Below the pieces are notes generated by a model that did not search any database, was not told the DNA's origin, and worked only from the letters and a program-made list of their open reading frames with translations. A program made the translations under genes and the position numbers. From the NCBI GenBank assembly GCA_013203845.1, contig JABMPE010000556.1:1-38650 (forward strand): a stretch of 38,650 nucleotides of DNA. Direction: 5' to 3'. Every line of letters begins with the position of its first letter. The stretch's first letter is position 1. Origin of the DNA: Rhodopirellula sp. Lineage in GTDB: Bacteria; Planctomycetota; Planctomycetia; Planctomycetales; Planctomycetaceae. Of the stretch, positions 1 to 38,650 are shown one piece after another.

Positions 1-107
1 CAATGATCAGACTGAGCATAAACAGATACTCAACCATCGTGTGGCCAGCTTCTTTTTCAAGAAACCGTCTCGCACTCAGCCAGACGCTCCACAGAATCTG
101 ATTCATC
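1..107 (-). CDS. Second, identical 5' portion of the Flp pilin-like gene (mirror copy, runs off the window)
   Basis: Inverted-repeat mirror of 311-417; start codon maps to position 107 on the minus strand. Confidence 0.6.
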
Positions 108-417
108 GCCTGCTCCTGCGGTCATCTGCCTCAACCGGTTGGTTCCGGTACGGAAGGTGCGTTAAAGGCGTAAGCATACTGAGTCGCAGGGGAATTGTTG
201 CAGCGATGCCACACCGGATTGCCGAATGGCCACCGTGTTGCGTGAAATCAACGTTGCCCGAAATCAGCTCAGTGGGCACACGGTTCAATCAATGACCGCA
301 GGAGCAGGCGATGAATCAGATTCTGTGGAGCGTCTGGCTGAGTGCGAGACGGTTTCTTGAAAAAGAAGCTGGCCACACGATGGTTGAGTATCTGTTTATG
401 CTCAGTCTGATCATTGT
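1..417. repeat. Exact inverted repeat: 1-125 is the reverse complement of 293-417, with a 167-bp spacer (126-292); left arm truncated by window edge
   Basis: Direct comparison: revcomp of 293-417 (atgaccgcaggagcaggcgatgaatcag...cagtctgatcattg) equals 1-125. The ORF track also shows the shared peptide ASFFFKKPSRTQPDAPQNLIHRLLLRS in ORFs 41..295 (+) and 269..607 (-). Confidence 0.97.
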
Positions 418-496
418 CGCCGCGATACTTGGCGTCAGAGTTGTCGGCGAAACGGCGCTGGACCTGTTCACCACGACAAGAAATGCGTTGCCGTAG
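311..496 (+). CDS. Flp-family type IVb pilin-like small protein
   Basis: 61 aa; EAGHTMVEYLFMLSLIIVAAILGV resembles the Flp/Fap prepilin hydrophobic segment (G-x-T-x-x-E-Y); SD-like ggagcagg 5' of ATG. Confidence 0.75.
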   Translation: MNQILWSVWLSARRFLEKEAGHTMVEYLFMLSLIIVAAILGVRVVGETALDLFTTTRNALP

Positions 497-560
497 TCCG
501 CGGCAGATCGTCCTTGCGGAGAAACGGAACGGCGACAGACAGAACGGCAACAGACCGATG

Positions 561-1928
561 TCAGACGAAAGATTGCAGGGCGTCGGTCTGGCACCGGGGT
601 TTCGCAAACTGCATCTGTACGGTGCCGACGAGGCGTTCCTGGAACGCGGCCTCGCAGTAGCTCAGGTAGAAGTCCCACAGCCGGATGAATGTTTCGGGAA
701 AGCCCTGCAGCCGCACTTTCTCGATCTGCTCGAAGAAGCGTTCTCTCCAGAGTCGCACTGTCTGGCCGTAGTGAGGAGCCATGTCTTCCACATGTAGAAG
801 TCGCATGTCTGTTGTGCGGGCGACGGAATCCAGCACGGATTTCGGAGTGATCAGGCAGCCGCCCGGAAAGATGTAACGCTGAATAAAGTCGACCGATTTC
901 AGATAATTCGGGTACCGCTGCTCGGACATCGTGATGCCCTGCATGGCCATCTGGCCGTCGGGTTTGAGCAACGAGCTGCACTTCGTGAAGAACGTGTCGA
1001 AGTATTCGTAGCCGACGGCTTCGATCATCTCGACCGAGACCAGCTTGTCGAACGATCCCCGCAGATCGCGATAGTCTTCCAGCAGCAGCGTGATGCGGTC
1101 TGACAGGCCGAGTTCAGCAACTCGCCGACAGGCAAAGTCGTGCTGCTCTTTTGAGATCGTCGTCGTTGTGACTCGGCAGCCGTAGTTTCTGGCGGCGTGA
1201 ATCGCCATGCCGCCCCATCCGGTACCGATTTCAACCAGATGATCTGACTGCTTCAGGTCCAGTTTGCGGCACAGGCGATCGATCTTGGCAACCTGAGCTT
1301 CGTGCAGCGTGCTTTCGGGAGTTTCGAACACGCCACTGGAATACGTCATCGTTTCGTCGAGAAACAACGCATAGAAGTCATTGCCCAGATCGTAATGCGC
1401 GTGGATATTGCGAACGCTGCCGTCCTTCGAGTTGTTCTGTCGCTCGTGCCACTTCCTGGCGAGCCGAGTCACCAGGCGAACGATTCCCTGGTTCGCTGAA
1501 TCCGTGACACTCAGGTTTCGGCAAAACATTCGCACAACGTCGGTCGGGTTGTCTGAAGTCCACTCGCCGAAGATGTAGGACTCGGCGAAGCCCAGGCTGC
1601 CGCCAAACGCGACGCGGCGAAAAAACTCGGAAGAATGAATCTGCATTCGTGCCACAATCGAGGTGTCGCCAGCGTCGTTTCCGAATCGGTGTTCGGTATC
1701 GCCCTCGTTGATCAACAGCAGTCCGTCCGACAACTGACTGAACTTGTTGAGCACGCCACGTCGCAGCAGACTCGCAGCGAAACCGAGCCGCCCTGTCTTC
1801 AATGCATCCGGTGTGTGCGCGACGTCAATCGATTTCAGATTCGCAATCGTATCGACGCGGTCGTCCGAGAGTTCGGAGGTTGTCGAAACAGATTTCTGAT
1901 TGTCAGCGAGTTGATTCAGTGGTTTCAT
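561..1928 (-). CDS. Cyclopropane-fatty-acyl-phospholipid synthase-like SAM methyltransferase
   Basis: Contains [38 protein letters not shown] and [18 protein letters not shown] motifs; ATG at 1928 overlaps the stop of the upstream gene (ATGA). Confidence 0.92.
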
Positions 1929-2944
1929 GAGCGAACGGTTTCCGTGACTCCTGGCAGATGGCCAGCCTGCGAGGCAGTGTCTTCGCTGGATGAATGGGCG
2001 ATTCCGGGGTGAGGAACGAACGGGCATTTTTTCCACCAGAGGCGCAGAGCCTGCCAGTAAATTCCCGCCGCGATCTTTCCCGTCATGAAGGGATAACGAA
2101 TGAGTGAGCCCGCAAGTTGCCCGCTGGAAATCGGTCGTCTTTTGAGATGGAGAGTGCAGTCAAACAGCCGGTTGTCGTCTCGCCAGTTCTCGATGTGTAC
2201 CGTCAACGTGTCGGCCGGAGCGACAATGCTCCAGCGATAATCCATGTTCATTTCCATGAACGGTGAGACATGAAAACGTTTGCCATGTCGAAAACGCAAG
2301 TGTCTGGCCACCGATGTTCGTTTTTCGGCCTCAGGTTCGACGATCTGCGAAGTGTAGGCAGACTGTGCGGGCTGATTCGAGCGATCCAGGATGTAACAGT
2401 GGCGTTCGTTCCAGGGCGTGTTGTTGACTTCAGCGACGATCGTCTGCACCTGCTGATCTTCAGAATCGAAGCAGTAGTAAAAGCTGACAGGGTTCATTGC
2501 GTAGCCGAAGTATCGTGGCTGAGTCAGCAGTCGAATCGGTCCGGCTGGACGTTCAACACCGCTGGCTGCGACGAGATCCCGCACGGCGACGTCGAGTGGT
2601 GGCAGCGGCTGGCCGTCGCGGTCGGGACACCGACCAAAGCTTCGCTCGGCAGGTCGCGGCCACTCTTTCGAGTCGAGTGCCGCGGGCAGGATGTCGTCCG
2701 GAAAGTTCAGGTGATCGGCCCGGTGGAATCTCGCGACTGCCACGCGATGAGTTGACCACAACCAGCGTCCGGCAAAGACCGTTTCCATCTCGCTGAGGTC
2801 GAGATACAGCCATGATCCCGAATAGGTAAAGTCATTTCTGATTGGCGTAAAGCGACGATGTCGCACGCGACCGACATACAAACAGCTTTTCAGCGAGTTG
2901 TGATCTACGGCTGCCACGGTGGCTCCACTCCGAGTTGTCGGCAC
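1925..2944 (-). CDS. DUF1365 family protein
   Basis: [29 protein letters not shown]..., [38 protein letters not shown] motifs. The ORF track start (2944) overlaps the upstream gene; the true start may be slightly downstream. Confidence 0.88.
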
Positions 2945-4197
2945 ACGGCCAGAGCGCTGTTGACGCCGTCTTCGTGAAAGCCGTTGCCCCAGTAGGCTCC
3001 GCAGAAGGACGTGCGGTTGTGGTTGATCAGGTCCGGATGCTTTCGTTGAGCGGCTCGCCGCTCGGTCGTGTAGACAGGATGGTGATATTCATATCGACCG
3101 ATGATTTTTGCCGGATCAATGGCGGCGTCCCGGTTGAGCGTGACGCAGTACGTTTTCTGTGCCTTCAGCCGCTGCAGGATGTTCATGTTGTAGGTGACTG
3201 TCGCACTTTGACCAGACGGTTCTGCTGACTGCTGATCGGTCTGCGAAGTCGGTCCGTCAATGTGGTAGTTCCAGCTTGCCCACGCGCGGCGACGTTGCGG
3301 CAGCACGGAATCGTCCCAGTGGAGCACTGCCGAATTCTTTTGATAAGGGAATTCGTTCAGCACGTTTCGCTCGGTTGTGGTTGCCGCACTGCCCAGAATG
3401 CTGAGTGCCTGATCGCTGTGACAGGCCAGGATCACGTGATCGAAGCTTTCGTCGTCGGATCCCTCTGCGTGAATCGTCACGGCACCTTCTTCGCGAGCGA
3501 TGGATTCAACGGGCGAGTTGAGACGGATGCGGTCCCGGACCGGAGCGATCAGTTTCTCAATATACCGCTGTGAGCCGCCGCTGATCACTCGCCATTGAGG
3601 TCGGTTTTTAATGCTGAGCAGTCCGTGATTCCGGTAGAACTCGACGATGAACCGAACTGGAAATTTCCCGAACGTTTCCGGTGGGCAGGACCAGATCGCC
3701 GCTCCCATCGGAATCAGATAATGATCGGAGAACTGCCGCGAGTAACCTCGCTGCGTGACGTACTCGTCGACGGTCAAGCTGTCATGGTCGGCTTCGAGCA
3801 ACTCCAGCGCCTCACGGTTGAAGCGAAGAATGTCCTGCAGCATTCGATGAAACCGCGGCTTCAACAGATTGCTTCGTTGAGCGAACAGGCCGTTCAGGTT
3901 CGAGCCGTTGTATTCGAGACGACTGCGTTCACAGCGAACGCTGAAACTCATCTCGGTCGCCAGCGAACTCACGCCGAGCCGTTCGAGCATCTGAATGAAA
4001 TTCGGATACGTCCAGTCGTTGTAGACAATGAAACCGGTGTCGATCGCCAGTTGTTCGCCATCAACGTTCACATCGATTGTGTGCGTGTGTCCGCCGATGT
4101 AGTCGTTGGCTTCGAAAACCGTGATCTCGTGCGACTGGTGCAACAGCCAGGCAGCGGTCAGGCCAGAGATTCCGGAGCCGATAATGGCGATTTTCAT
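2905..4197 (-). CDS. FAD-dependent amine-oxidase-like oxidoreductase (NAD/FAD-binding, COG2907-like)
   Basis: [42 protein letters not shown] Rossmann start; [20 protein letters not shown]-terminal motif. Confidence 0.9.
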
Positions 4198-4497
4198 CCG
4201 TGATTTCGATGTTCGAGATGGCATGGGCGGCGAACGTCTGTCTGGATTCCTGATCCGGACGCGGGCAAATGTTAGCGAATTCACATTCGATGTTCGCGTC
4301 TTAAAGCAACAGAACTTTCGCTCGGCAGCAGTTTTGCCATGACGTTTCCAGGGTCGTCGTTAAAGGCATTCGCTCCCCGCTCTTGACAATCTGAGGGAGA
4401 GACCGACATCCTCCCGCTGGCCGCATTTGATTGGCTGTTCCCTTCAGGATTCAAGCCTGAACCAACACGGACGAAGAGACCGGTTCGGAGAGCTGTT

Positions 4498-5655
4498 ATG
4501 AGAAACGCCGTAGTTATTGATGCTGTTCGCACGCCCGTCGCGAAGGCAAATTCTGCCATCGGAAACTATCGCGATGTTCGTGCTGATGAGCTATCCGCAG
4601 GACTGATGAAGGCTCTGGTCGAGCGAACCGGAATCGATCCGCAGCTCATCGAAGATATCCGCTGGGGCTGTGTGCAGCAGCAGGGCGAGCAGGGGTTCGA
4701 CGTGGCTCGCATCGCGTCCCTGATGGCAGGCCTGCCAATCGAAATCGGCGGAGTCACACTCAACCGAAACTGCGCGTCGAGTCTACAGGCAATTAACGAT
4801 TGCGCGATGAATATCGCTGCAAACTGTGAGGACATTCAGATAGCTGGCGGCATCGAGCACATGGGACACATTCCGGCCAGCAAGGATTACGACCCCGCGC
4901 CCGGTCTTTTCGTGCGGCACAGCGAAGCCATCATGAACATGGGGCTGACCGCCGAGTATCTGGCGATGAAATATCAGATCCCGCGAGAAGCTCAGGACGC
5001 GTTCGCCGCTCGCAGTCAGCAACTGGCGCTGGCAGCAACTGAAAAAGGTGAATTCGCCAGCGAAATCATACCGACGTGGGGGCGTTCGGAAGCCGGGCAG
5101 AAAGAGCTGATCACAATCGATCAAGGCATCCGCCCCGATACGACGGCTGAAGGGTTGGCGAAGTTGCCGCCCGCCTTCAATCCGGCTGGCGGAAGTGTGA
5201 CCGCCGGCAGCAGTTCGCAGCTCAGTGCGGGTTCAGCCGCCATGCTGATCATGTCCGAAGAGAAAGCCAGCGAACTCGGCCTGAAGCCGATGGCCAGAAT
5301 TCGAGCAATGGCTGTGGCGGGAGTGGCTCCCGAAGAAATGGGTATCGGACCAGTCCCCGCCGTTCACAAAGCCTTGAAGCGAGCCGGACTCACTCTCGAT
5401 CAGATGGATTGCCTGGAAATCAACGAAGCTTTCGCCGTGCAGGTTCTCTCCGTGATGAAACTGCTCGGGATCAACGAAGAAAAGGTCAACACTCGCGGTG
5501 GAGCTGTCGCACTCGGTCATCCGCTCGGAGCCAGTGGTGCTCGCATCGCTGTCACACTGCTCCACCGAATGCGGGATTCCGGTGCGAAGTACGGACTGGC
5601 AACTCTGTGCGTCGGCCAGGGACAGGGTGTCGCTACGATCTTTGAAAGTGTGTAA
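4498..5655 (+). CDS. fadA: Thiolase / acetyl-CoA C-acyltransferase
   Basis: VVIDAVRTPVAKANSAIGNYRDVRADEL, LNRNCASSLQAI, GGAVALGHPLGASGAR, TLCVGQGQGVATIFE thiolase motifs. Confidence 0.9.
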   Translation: MRNAVVIDAVRTPVAKANSAIGNYRDVRADELSAGLMKALVERTGIDPQLIEDIRWGCVQQQGEQGFDVARIASLMAGLPIEIGGVTLNRNCASSLQAINDCAMNIAANCEDIQIAGGIEHMGHIPASKDYDPAPGLFVRHSEAIMNMGLTAEYLAMKYQIPREAQDAFAARSQQLALAATEKGEFASEIIPTWGRSEAGQKELITIDQGIRPDTTAEGLAKLPPAFNPAGGSVTAGSSSQLSAGSAAMLIMSEEKASELGLKPMARIRAMAVAGVAPEEMGIGPVPAVHKALKRAGLTLDQMDCLEINEAFAVQVLSVMKLLGINEEKVNTRGGAVALGHPLGASGARIAVTLLHRMRDSGAKYGLATLCVGQGQGVATIFESV

Positions 5656-5861: not shown

Positions 5862-6824
5862 ATGTCGGAAGCTCGACTTGGCCTGCCCAATCTGGGATTT
5901 GGCGTCGGATTACGCACGGCCCACTACCCGCACATTCTGAAACACAAGCCGGACGTCGACTGGTTCGAGATCATCTCGGAAAACTACATGGACTCCGGTG
6001 GTCGACCGCGACACGTGCTGGAGCAGATTGTCGAGCAATACAAAGTTGTCATGCACGGCGTGTCGTTGTCGATTGGCTCGACCGATCCGCTTAATTTTGA
6101 ATATCTGGCAAAACTGAAAACGCTGGCCGAATGGACCCAGGCGGTCTGGATTTCCGACCACGTTTGCTGGACCGGAGTCAATGGTCTGAACGGTCACGAC
6201 CTGTTGCCTCTGCCGTACAACGAAGAAACGCTGCAGCATGCCGTGAGTCGGATCAAAGTCGTGCAGGACTTTCTGGAGCGACCACTCGTGCTGGAAAATC
6301 CCAGCACGTACGTCACGTTTACGGATTCGACGATGTCTGAATGGGACTTTGTCACGCGCATGGCCGAAGAGTCTGACTGCGGACTGCTGCTCGACGTCAA
6401 CAACGTTTATGTGAGTTGCTTCAATCACGATCTCGATCCGGAAGATTTCATCCGGTCGTTGCCGCATGAGCGGATCGTGCAGTTTCATCTTGCCGGACAC
6501 ACGGACTGCGGAACGCACATCATCGACACGCATGACAACTTTGTTGTTGACAAGGTGTGGGATCTATACCGGCTGGCTCACAAGTTGACAGGCGGAGTGT
6601 CGACACTGCTGGAATGGGATGCTCAGATTCCCGACTTCGATGTTGTACACGGTGAAGTTTTGAAGGCCCGCGATTTGGTTCGCGATGGCAGTACTGTTTT
6701 GCCGAAGACAGCAGGAAACGTCGGCGACGATGTCCTGGCAGATCATGGCGAGAGTTTCCACGAGGTTTCTCGATCGAGGGCCATTCCGCAGCCTGCGGTC
6801 TTCGTTGCGGCTGAGGTTGAGTGA
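5862..6824 (+). CDS. DUF692 family / multinuclear non-heme iron-dependent oxidase (MNIO)-like protein
   Basis: GFGVGLRTAHYPHILKHKPDVDWFEIISENYMD, HGVSLSIGSTDPLNFEYL, WISDHVCWTG, LENPSTYVTF, GLLLDVNNVYVSCFNH, FHLAGHTD motifs. Confidence 0.93.
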   Translation: MSEARLGLPNLGFGVGLRTAHYPHILKHKPDVDWFEIISENYMDSGGRPRHVLEQIVEQYKVVMHGVSLSIGSTDPLNFEYLAKLKTLAEWTQAVWISDHVCWTGVNGLNGHDLLPLPYNEETLQHAVSRIKVVQDFLERPLVLENPSTYVTFTDSTMSEWDFVTRMAEESDCGLLLDVNNVYVSCFNHDLDPEDFIRSLPHERIVQFHLAGHTDCGTHIIDTHDNFVVDKVWDLYRLAHKLTGGVSTLLEWDAQIPDFDVVHGEVLKARDLVRDGSTVLPKTAGNVGDDVLADHGESFHEVSRSRAIPQPAVFVAAEVE

Positions 6825-7718
6825 ATGGCCGATCCACGATCGCTCAGCAATCTGCAACGTTGGGTGCAGGAAGTCATTACCCACCCTGACGGGATCCAGG
6901 CGGGAGTCGAGTCTTCGTCGGCGCGACAGCAGATCGACATCGACGCGTCACAGATCGAGCAGATTGTCGAACGTTCCACTCGTCTGGGCAGTGCTGCGCG
7001 GCTGGCTGTTTACGGCAATGCTTACTTCGCTCGGCTGATCGAGTGTCTTGGCGAAGAATTTCCCGCGACGCGTTACGCGCTGGGTGAAGAAACATTCGAA
7101 AGCTTTGCTTTTGGATACATTCATGACTCGCCATCGACGAACTACTCGCTGGGATTCCTCGGCGAGCGTTTTGCGCAATACCTGATCGACACACGACCAA
7201 CCGATGTGCCGAAACCAGGCTGGCCCGACTTCCTGATCGACCTCGCCACACTGGAGCGAACGTACGCGGAAGTTTTTGACGGCCCCGGTCCAGAGAATCT
7301 CGACACGCTGAAGCCGGAAGACCTGCAGGCGGTGCCGCCTGATCGGATCAGTGAGATTCGGTTCGTTCCCGTGCCTTCTTTGCGATTGATCGCCGCGGAG
7401 TTTCCCGTTCACGAATACGTCACAGCCGTTCGCCGCGACCAGTCGCCCGAGATTCCAATGCCGGCCGAAACGCTGCTGGTCATCACTCGGCGGGATTACG
7501 TGGTTCGCCGTGGTGCTGTCTCACAGGCCGAGTTTCAACTGTTGCGAGCGATCATTGACGGCAACACTCTGGGACAGGCGATTGAACAGGCTGCTGCGAC
7601 GATGCCCGACGGAACCGACGATGAGTTGGCCACCAACCTGTCGAAATGGTTCCAGCATTGGGCCTCTGCCGGGTGGTTTCTGCGCGTGGAACTGCCGAGC
7701 GTGGCACCGTCTGATTGA
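6825..7718 (+). CDS. DUF2063 (HvfC/BufC-like, putative DNA-binding domain-containing) partner protein
   Basis: Starts immediately after the MNIO stop (TGA|ATG); RLAVYGNAYFARLIECLGEEFPATRYALGEETFESFAFGYI...SYSLGFLGERF-like pattern typical of DUF2063. Confidence 0.88.
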   Translation: MADPRSLSNLQRWVQEVITHPDGIQAGVESSSARQQIDIDASQIEQIVERSTRLGSAARLAVYGNAYFARLIECLGEEFPATRYALGEETFESFAFGYIHDSPSTNYSLGFLGERFAQYLIDTRPTDVPKPGWPDFLIDLATLERTYAEVFDGPGPENLDTLKPEDLQAVPPDRISEIRFVPVPSLRLIAAEFPVHEYVTAVRRDQSPEIPMPAETLLVITRRDYVVRRGAVSQAEFQLLRAIIDGNTLGQAIEQAAATMPDGTDDELATNLSKWFQHWASAGWFLRVELPSVAPSD

Positions 7719-7796: not shown

Positions 7797-9161
7797 TTAG
7801 TGGACCAGCCGAGGCTGATCACCGCCTCGTCCGATTCCTCGATAGATTTCAAACAGTCCGGCAAAGTCACCGTCTTCGACGTGGTGATACTGACCGCCGG
7901 TTGCTCCGGCGGCATCTTCGATGGCTGCTGACAGCGCATCGCGTCCCAGCGTAATTCCGTGAATGATGATGTTATTCTGCCGGGCCAGTGCCGCGTAGTA
8001 GTAGATCGAGTCGATCGGGTCCGCTCCCGGAGGCTCGGTTTCATTGGCTTGGCCATCGGTCATCAGAACCATGACCTGTTCAACTTGATTGCCAAGTGAG
8101 TCGTATCTGGGATTGGCTAGAAACTCCTGAATGGCAACTCGCATGCCGCCGCCGATACATGTTGTGGATGCGTAAAGATTTGGAACCAATTGAGGAACTC
8201 TGGCGATCACTGGCTGGAAGGTGAAATTCAGTTGTCGTTCAAGACGCCCTGACAACCGTGTTTGGCTGCTGCCATTGTTGTTTCCGTTGTTGTTCCCGTT
8301 GTTGTTCCCGTTGTTGTTTCCGTGGTTGTTTCCGTGGTTGTTTCCGTGGTTGTTGCCGTTGCCAGATTTGGCGGAAACTCCGCTGTCGAAGTTCGGCAAA
8401 CTCGCGATCCTGGTGCCGGTCACTGAGGCATTGCTGTTGAGACTGGTAATGCTGCCGGCATTTCCTCGACCGGTATTGTTGCCGCTTCCATTGCCGTTCC
8501 CGGTGTTGATCAGGACGGGATAGCTGTAAACGGCCAAGCCAAGCCGGTCGTCCACTCCGAGTTCGTCAATCAGGACCAACGCTGCTGCACGGGTCATCGT
8601 CATCCGGTTGTACGATGACATCGACCCCGAGCAGTCGATTACCAGCATGACGTCACGCATTCTGGTTCGACCGATCACGGCGATCGCCTCGTCGTTTATC
8701 TGATGCGTCTTCTGGCCGAGTACCGGCGCGAAGAACAGGTTCATGGCATTCTGACGAGCATTGCTCAGCTCGCCTCTGACTCGTACGGCATTCGCCAGAG
8801 TGAGGTCAGCCCCATTGAACGGCGTGAACTGTCCCGTCAGCTCATCCCAGATACCGATCTCGACGTCTGAATCGCGTTGCAGTGTCAGGTTCTGACCGTT
8901 CACCGTATTCAGTGCCGCCAGATCGACCGCGGCGTCGACGATCTGATTCTGCCCGCCATCGGGATCAATCTGTAGTTCCTGAGCGGCCGCAAGCGCTGCC
9001 GCGTCCACCGCGGACTGCATTTCCTGATCGACCAGCATGATGTAGCCAAAGTCGATTGAGAATGACGCAAAGGCCAGAATCACGATCAGGAAAATCGCCG
9101 AAAGAACGGCGATTGCACCGCGTCGTGAGACTTCTTCGCGAAGTGCACGAAATGATTTCAT
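7797..9161 (-). CDS. TadG/TadE-like pilus assembly protein with von Willebrand factor A domain
   Basis: RRGAIAVLSAIFLIVILAFASFSIDFGYIMLVDQEMQSAVDAAALAAAQEL is a Tad-type N-terminus; VMLVIDCSGSMSSYNR is a vWA MIDAS motif. Confidence 0.88.
   Translation of the reverse strand: MKSFRALREEVSRRGAIAVLSAIFLIVILAFASFSIDFGYIMLVDQEMQSAVDAAALAAAQELQIDPDGGQNQIVDAAVDLAALNTVNGQNLTLQRDSDVEIGIWDELTGQFTPFNGADLTLANAVRVRGELSNARQNAMNLFFAPVLGQKTHQINDEAIAVIGRTRMRDVMLVIDCSGSMSSYNRMTMTRAAALVLIDELGVDDRLGLAVYSYPVLINTGNGNGSGNNTGRGNAGSITSLNSNASVTGTRIASLPNFDSGVSAKSGNGNNHGNNHGNNHGNNNGNNNGNNNGNNNGSSQTRLSGRLERQLNFTFQPVIARVPQLVPNLYASTTCIGGGMRVAIQEFLANPRYDSLGNQVEQVMVLMTDGQANETEPPGADPIDSIYYYAALARQNNIIIHGITLGRDALSAAIEDAAGATGGQYHHVEDGDFAGLFEIYRGIGRGGDQPRLVH
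8275..8358. repeat. Seven-unit 12-bp coding tandem repeat (minus strand: Asn-rich NNHG/NNNG repeats)
   Basis: Units ttgttgtttccg / ttgttgttcccg / tggttgtttccg repeated in register from 8275 to 8358. Confidence 0.95.
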
Positions 9162-9536
9162 CGTGTGTGTCTCCGGCCAGGAAGCTGGCTTCAAGCAGGT
9201 ACGGAAATTTCCATCTGTTTATCAGTAGGTCGCGTTCAGCGGTCCGGCCCCGGGTTTGCGGCAGAAACTCGTCAGACAAGGGGGATTCCGTACGCCTGAA
9301 ACCGGGCATGTCTGGTAGGCAACGTGCTGACGGATTGTCTGCACCGAGGGAATAGTCAGCAAAAAAGCTCTTGTCCCATAAACTGGATTGATTGACTCTG
9401 ACAACTCGCGAAACCTTCTGTGGCTGCATTGAGTAAGCAAACCTATGATGGTTCTCGTGGGCAAACGTTCGGGAGAGCCTGACGAGACTCGTTATCGCTC
9501 TGCCGGAACCATCGACAACTCAATGGCCAGTCTCTG

Positions 9537-11369
9537 ATGACCAGCTCCGGCTCATCCCCCAATCAGCAGAATCCAGTTCCACGTGACAACTCGTCACCTG
9601 CGCCGGGCTTGCCGGAAGCTGAGGCGGCAGTTCCGAACGACGATCTGGCACATACAGACGAACTGTCGCCGGCGGCGCTGCAGGAAATGCACGATCGCGC
9701 GATGCTCCAGCAGGTAGAACGAGCTGCGGCTCAGCAGGAAACATCATCGCCACCGAATCTCACGATCACTCAGTCACAGCTGGCAGCCGGCTCCGGAACG
9801 CAGACACGGCTTGAGGCCAACGCATCAATGGTCGGCGATCACACGCTCGCTGAGACTCTTGTTCCCGCTGAATCGGACAACCGGGCGCTCGACCTGACTG
9901 ACTGCACGCTGGGTGAATTTCGAATCCTGAGAAGACTCGGAGCCGGCGGGATGGCTCAGGTCTATCTGGCTGAGCAGATCTCGCTCAAACGAAACGTGGC
10001 GATCAAGGTCATGCGTTCTGACTTCGGCAGCGACGAGACTCACCGCAAGCGATTTGAGCATGAAGCCAGAGCGGCTGCCGGACTCAACCATCCCAACATT
10101 GTGCAGGTCTTCGCGGTTGGTGAAGAAGAACACATTCAGTACATCGCACAGGAGTACGTTCAGGGAACGAACCTGCGGCAGTACCTTCAGAAGAAAAAGC
10201 CGCCGACCGCTCACGTCGCCATGCACCTGATGAAGCAGGTCTGTTCCGCACTGCACGCGGCTCATCAGGCCGGGATCGTTCATCGGGATATCAAGCCCGA
10301 AAATATCATGGTGACTCGCCGAATGGTCGCGAAAGTCACGGACTTCGGCCTGGCCCAGCTGACACTCGGCGGAGAACGTGTCAACCTGACTCAGATGGGC
10401 GTCACGATGGGCACACCGCTCTACATGAGTCCCGAGCAGGTGAACGGCACCAGCGTCGACGCGCGAAGCGATCTGTATTCGATGGGCGTGACGTTTTATC
10501 ACCTGCTCTGCGGAAGCCCGCCGTTTCGAGCGGCTACCGCGTTCGCACTGGCCTACAAGCACTTGAACGAAGATGCACCGCCGCTGGGGGATCGGCGACC
10601 GGATCTGCCACCATCTCTGATTAAGGTTATTCATCGCCTGATGTCAAAAGATCCGGCAGAGCGATTTTCCGACGCTCGCGCGGTGCTGACCGAACTCAAG
10701 CGAATCGAAAAGTCCGGCGAGACCGGCGGCAGCTTCTCACAGACGGAGCCGTCCTCGCCGTCACCATCCTGGCGGGACGGGCTGCCAACCGGCAGGCAAC
10801 TCAGGAAGTACGGTCTGTGGTGCCTGGCAGTGTTCCTGATCGCTTCCGGGGCTGGTCGTGACCTGCGGAGACGCAACCCGCTCGACGCACCGATTGACTC
10901 CGTGACCTCTGTCGAGATTCTGTCGACGGCGAAAGCGCAGGTGGAAATGGCGTTGTCTCTGAAAAAGGGGCCGTCTCGTCCGGAACGACTTGAAGAGGCC
11001 TGGCAGGCCGTCATTGATCACTTTCCGAACGACCGAGGCGCGGTTCTGGAAGCGCATCGCGAACTCGGTCTGCTTCAATTGAAAGCGCGTCGGCACAAAG
11101 ACGCGTTGGCCCATTTCGACGAACTAGCGAGGGAGAACGACAACCGCTGGAAAGCTGACGGCGTGGCCGGTCAGGCCGTTCTCGCCATGCTGGCCGGCAA
11201 ACATGAAGATTCGCACGAACTGATTTCGATCCAACTGGCCGATCACCGTGACCTTGTCAGCCCTGAACTGAAAAAACTCGTCGCCGAAGCCGAAGAACGC
11301 AATCTTGCATTTCGCTCGCCCGAGAACATCGATTTTGAGTCACTGTTTGAATCACCGGCGGAAAACTGA
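9537..11369 (+). CDS. Serine/threonine protein kinase with one TM segment and TPR-like C-terminal region
   Basis: RRLGAGGMAQVYLAEQISLKRNVAIKVM, HRDIKPENIMV, DFGLAQL, GTPLYMSPEQ; TM YGLWCLAVFLIASGAG. Confidence 0.95.
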   Translation: MTSSGSSPNQQNPVPRDNSSPAPGLPEAEAAVPNDDLAHTDELSPAALQEMHDRAMLQQVERAAAQQETSSPPNLTITQSQLAAGSGTQTRLEANASMVGDHTLAETLVPAESDNRALDLTDCTLGEFRILRRLGAGGMAQVYLAEQISLKRNVAIKVMRSDFGSDETHRKRFEHEARAAAGLNHPNIVQVFAVGEEEHIQYIAQEYVQGTNLRQYLQKKKPPTAHVAMHLMKQVCSALHAAHQAGIVHRDIKPENIMVTRRMVAKVTDFGLAQLTLGGERVNLTQMGVTMGTPLYMSPEQVNGTSVDARSDLYSMGVTFYHLLCGSPPFRAATAFALAYKHLNEDAPPLGDRRPDLPPSLIKVIHRLMSKDPAERFSDARAVLTELKRIEKSGETGGSFSQTEPSSPSPSWRDGLPTGRQLRKYGLWCLAVFLIASGAGRDLRRRNPLDAPIDSVTSVEILSTAKAQVEMALSLKKGPSRPERLEEAWQAVIDHFPNDRGAVLEAHRELGLLQLKARRHKDALAHFDELARENDNRWKADGVAGQAVLAMLAGKHEDSHELISIQLADHRDLVSPELKKLVAEAEERNLAFRSPENIDFESLFESPAEN

Positions 11370-38367: not shown

Positions 38368-38650
38368 ATGATTTCTTCTGATATCCGCGTTGAGTTCGAA
38401 CGTTTTCGAAACGCTGGTCTCAATGGGGACGACATGGCCGCCTCGCGTCTTGAATCACGTTTTGGCGATGGTTTGACTCGCTTCGTCCGTCGTATCGTTC
38501 GTGCAGGCCGAGGCACTGGCGCGCTGGCTGAATTTATTCTGAATGAGGCAAGCATCATTCGTGAACAACTCGGCCTGGAGCGTGATGAGCTTGTGGCAGA
38601 ACTGAACTGCCGTCTGTGCGCCGTGATCACTGGTCGCGGCTTCGCCGGGC
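38368..38650 (+). CDS. Hypothetical protein, N-terminal part only (runs off the window)
   Basis: Open from ATG 38368 (MISSDIRVEFERFRNAGLNGDDMAASRLESRFGDGLTRFVRRIVRAGRGTGALAEFILNEASIIREQLGLERDELVAELNCRLC...) to the window end. Confidence 0.6.
   Translation, partial: MISSDIRVEFERFRNAGLNGDDMAASRLESRFGDGLTRFVRRIVRAGRGTGALAEFILNEASIIREQLGLERDELVAELNCRLCAVITGRGFAG

Follow-up and report, generated by a model that had tools for sequence, protein, structure and literature searches.

Does the start of a pilin gene occur twice, in mirror image, in the genome of this organism, or only in its assembly? The question was raised by the left end of the window, by which we mean the whole stretch of DNA analysed, i.e., all 38,650 bases of contig C512. 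An exact inverted repeat was found at the window start, with arms at positions 1-125 and 292-416 (125 nt each, 100% complementary) and a gap of 166 nt between them. The source genome consisted of 758 contigs totalling 8.54 Mb, with a completeness of 100 and a contamination of 6.36.

The inverted repeat and the pilin gene

An earlier note on this DNA had described an exact inverted duplication. Its arm length of 125 nt and the full identity of the arms were correct; however, its coordinates were off by one, as the second arm lies at 292-416 and not 293-417 and the spacer is 166 nt and not 167 nt long. The repeat did cover the start region and part of the coding sequence of the pilin gene, as claimed, but it takes in 106 nt of coding sequence (not 107) and identity extends to 19 nt upstream of the ATG (not 18). 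The arms had also been given as at least 125 nt long, a wording that left room for growth to the left. No leftward extension is possible, because base 1 is the end of the contig and the left arm is flush with it. Nor does the sequence contain the two divergent Flp-like genes that had been proposed: there is one complete gene and a truncated mirror copy, the left arm coding for pilin residues 1-35 and then running off the contig.

The genuine Flp-like pilin gene (311-496, plus strand, 61 aa) was identified from its open reading frame, from Pfam and by comparison with congeners; besides this single locus, the genome contained only the chimeric arm and two distantly related paralogues. The protein scored 14.5 bits against Pfam Flp_Fap (PF04964), below the gathering cut-off of 32.2, so it is named Flp-like only. 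The pilin of one congener scored 20.0 bits against the same family, and the homologues in congeneric species were 55-75% identical to the window protein, the best at 75%. This low score, taken with the identity among congeners, indicates a divergent Flp-like protein within the genus.

Downstream, a gene of the cyclopropane-fatty-acid synthase family (CMAS; 561-2036, minus strand) converges on the pilin gene, and a CMAS-family gene also adjoined the pilin gene convergently in three of the four congeners in which the locus was found, within the stretch fetched. In the window, positions 561-5655 hold a gene group composed of the CMAS-family methyltransferase, a DUF1365 protein and an FAD amine oxidase, all on the minus strand, and a thiolase on the plus strand. 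An MbnB/TglH/ChrH-family enzyme (RiPP precursor modification) and, directly after it, a DUF2063 protein with an NGO1945 C-terminal domain occupy 5862-7718. A TadE/G-like protein with von Willebrand domains is encoded at 7797-9194 (minus strand), 7 kb from the pilin gene, and was the sole further pilus-related gene among the proteins scanned. At its right end (38599-38650) the window matched the end of contig C323 exactly over 52 nt. An overlap of this kind, left unmerged, is ordinary and makes C323 the probable right neighbour of the window.

The native left flank

When window positions 1-600 were searched against the same genome, window 113-198 proved to recur without mismatch, in reverse complement, as the first 86 bases of contig C629. 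Past the shared 86 nt, C629 departed from the window and reached the start codon of an oxidoreductase gene within 10 nt (C629:97-1581; 494 aa, Oxidored_FMN domain). Joined on this 86-nt overlap and on synteny, the two contigs place the oxidoreductase and pilin start codons 208 nt apart, of which C629 contributes 10 nt and window 113-310 the rest.

Of the five congeners, four (G001, G003, G004 and G005) showed the same arrangement, a single pilin gene with an oxidoreductase 87-92% identical to that on C629 upstream of it in divergent orientation, and none of the four carried an inverted pilin copy at the locus. The fifth congener, G002, was 59% complete and gave no match. When window 1-300 was compared with congener DNA, base 113 was the very first position of similarity in three species, and positions 113-252 were 76-85% identical to these three. 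By contrast, window 1-80 matched solely the single pilin gene of the congeners, on the opposite strand. The intergenic spacer (126-291) that separates the two divergent genes, oxidoreductase and pilin, was collinear in all four congeners and in unchanged orientation. The C629 flank and the edge of congener similarity at base 113 together show that the window is native from position 113 onwards and that positions 1-112 are foreign to their place. These 112 bases (minus strand, the exact reverse complement of 305-416) mirror the 5' end of the pilin gene at the point where the oxidoreductase should begin, and no annotation of them is warranted. Judged from sequence and gene order, the organism has an ordinary pair of divergent genes at this locus, with the oxidoreductase predicted leftwards, the pilin rightwards and the CMAS-family gene convergent behind the latter. 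The inverted repeat is thus present in the sequence and almost certainly absent from the organism.

Origin of the repeat

The native and chimeric sequences meet in a 13-nt stretch, CTCCTGCGGTCAT at window 113-125, that belongs to both. It is the left copy of a 13-nt inverted repeat and is identical in C512, in C629 and, on the other strand, in the source of the arm at 292-304; read in the other direction, the 13 nt common to chimera, native sequence and source are ATGACCGCAGGAG. The right copy (292-304) lies upstream of the pilin start codon. The two stretches stand just upstream of the two divergent start codons, where ribosome-binding sites are expected, and they happen to agree in the source species. 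This 13-nt inverted repeat was absent in the four congeners, in which the longest exact inverted pair at the locus was 7-8 nt.

Inverted repeats were further scanned in 118 readable contigs of the source genome (1.25 Mb, with 215 true contig ends). Exact inverted arms of at least 35 nt were found in only two cases, that of the window and one at the right end of contig C713 of the same genome (G000), with 104-nt arms at 9697-9800 and 10894-10997 and a loop of 1093 nt. Both repeats were flush with a contig end, and each had a second contig with the unchimeric continuation; for C713 this was C278, which shares 109 nt with it before carrying on without the mirror copy. The junction microhomology at C713 was 5 nt. 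Shorter exact inverted repeats, with 14-34 nt per arm, occurred here and there within contigs, and none of them was flush with an end. The length of the window arm is far above chance, as the next longest exact inverted arm in the 1.25 Mb, bar the case on C713, was 34 nt. For one given repeat, the chance that an outer edge falls on a contig end is about 3 in 10,000 (an estimate from 215 ends, 1.25 Mb and two edges), showing that the position of both long repeats at ends is not a product of chance under random placement.

We conclude with high confidence that the inverted pilin repeat is a foldback chimera, an artefact at the contig end. The segment is inverted and near (166 nt), the junction is complementary (13 nt), an unchimeric counterpart exists in C629 and the pattern recurs at C713. 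A foldback artefact at a contig end had been among the explanations offered in the earlier note, and it was borne out by the native flank on C629, congener synteny, the junction microhomology and the recurrence at C713. During library preparation, be it at whole-genome amplification, end repair or PCR, a strand running out of the spacer toward the oxidoreductase would have ended in ATGACCGCAGGAG-3'. This 3' end would then have folded back, paired with the complementary CTCCTGCGGTCAT that precedes the pilin gene on the same strand and been extended into a copy of the pilin 5' region, giving the order mirror pilin start, spacer, pilin. The assembler would have extended the end of C512 with such a chimeric read, so that the oxidoreductase gave way to 112 terminal bases that mirror the start of the pilin gene. 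Stretches common to contig starts in this assembly reached about 140 nt, and both foldback arms were shorter, a length that would suit extension by about one short read; the physical priming step and this extension are what we infer from the sequence pattern.

A pure assembler misjoin at the 13-nt repeat, with no chimeric molecule behind it, would also be an artefact and a variant of the foldback explanation. Overlaps between contig ends in the assembly were 20, 23, 34, 38, 52 and 88 nt, so there was no single fixed overlap length, which is compatible with such a misjoin. However, the C713 junction shares only 5 nt, too short to serve as an assembler overlap, indicating that a chimeric library molecule is the likelier source; the misjoin is improbable. 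We also rejected the idea that a fixed k-mer overlap alone produced the repeat, with a de Bruijn graph and a flipped spacer yielding an arm of length k, in view of the varying overlaps and of the 5 nt at C713. Several contigs of the assembly shared their first 100-140 nt and were unrelated beyond them (L102, L104 and L108, bases 1-140; L090, L122 and L123; L110, L117 and L145), which suggests at least three dispersed-repeat families whose edges break the assembly.

The earlier note had also considered an invertible promoter cassette. Applied to the 13-nt repeats, this would mean that some cells of the population carry the spacer flipped between them and that a junction of pilin and inverted spacer was assembled onto the contig. 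The arm boundary does coincide with the perfect 13-nt inverted repeat that flanks the spacer, and a mixed population would yield such a junction while leaving the oxidoreductase on another contig. However, the native flank on C629 and the collinear congeners contradict this reading, the 13-nt repeat was not conserved in these congeners and the spacer had one orientation in all four. The reciprocal junction, in which the pilin end of the spacer would abut the oxidoreductase, did not occur in the assembly even when 2 mismatches were allowed. No recombinase domain was detected among the 26 region proteins scanned with Pfam, a set that took in larger ORFs and part of C629, and the same type of contig-end foldback occurred at an unrelated locus with just 5 nt in common. 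The cassette is therefore a very improbable source of the repeat, and there is equally little reason to expect a minority of cells in which a real intergenic flip through the species-specific 13-nt inverted repeat switches pilin expression.

Short inverted repeats can also promote template switching in living cells, and the 13-nt length of the repeat makes a genuine, if rare, rearrangement conceivable at the locus. Even so, the remaining explanation of the earlier note, by which the pilin 5' region was recently duplicated in inverted orientation or copied by gene conversion, is hardly credible for this genome or for a minor strain of the population despite the exact identity over 125 nt, as the native flank is intact on C629 in the same genome bin, the locus is single-copy and collinear in four congeners, the arm stops at the contig end and both long inverted repeats in 1.25 Mb sit at such ends.

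With the foldback chimera recognized, the spurious inverted duplication of the pilin is removed and the true gene order is given. The case further provides a simple screen for fragmented assemblies: where a long exact inverted repeat is flush with a contig end, the native continuation should be sought on other contigs before a biological reading is made.

Comparison with known systems

Promoters of the fimS type, which serve in phase variation, are invertible. As in those systems, the intergenic region ahead of a pilin gene is here bordered by short inverted repeats. However, the repeat at the present locus is unconserved, the spacer orientation is fixed in congeners and the reciprocal junction is missing. 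Further, the arm copies the pilin gene itself, and a flip alone would not place that gene twice in the genome.

A closer counterpart is found in the foldback chimeras of multiple displacement amplification (MDA), in which 85% of 475 junctions were inverted, mostly between segments less than 10 kb apart, and complementarity of 2-21 nt was present at most junctions (Lasken and Stockwell 2007, PMC1855051). The two cases reported here likewise join near segments (166 and 1093 nt) in inverted orientation, at 13 and 5 nt of shared sequence; unlike the MDA chimeras, they are known from assembled contig ends and not from reads. Chimeric reads also arise at natural inverted repeats in sonicated libraries, as covered by the PDSM model of fragmentation (PMC10908179). 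That model was described for human hybrid-capture libraries; it too has chimeric reads arise where the template naturally contains a short inverted repeat. By this comparison, the junctions of the window and of C713 both fit the description of MDA chimeras well, and the window junction also fits that of the PDSM model.
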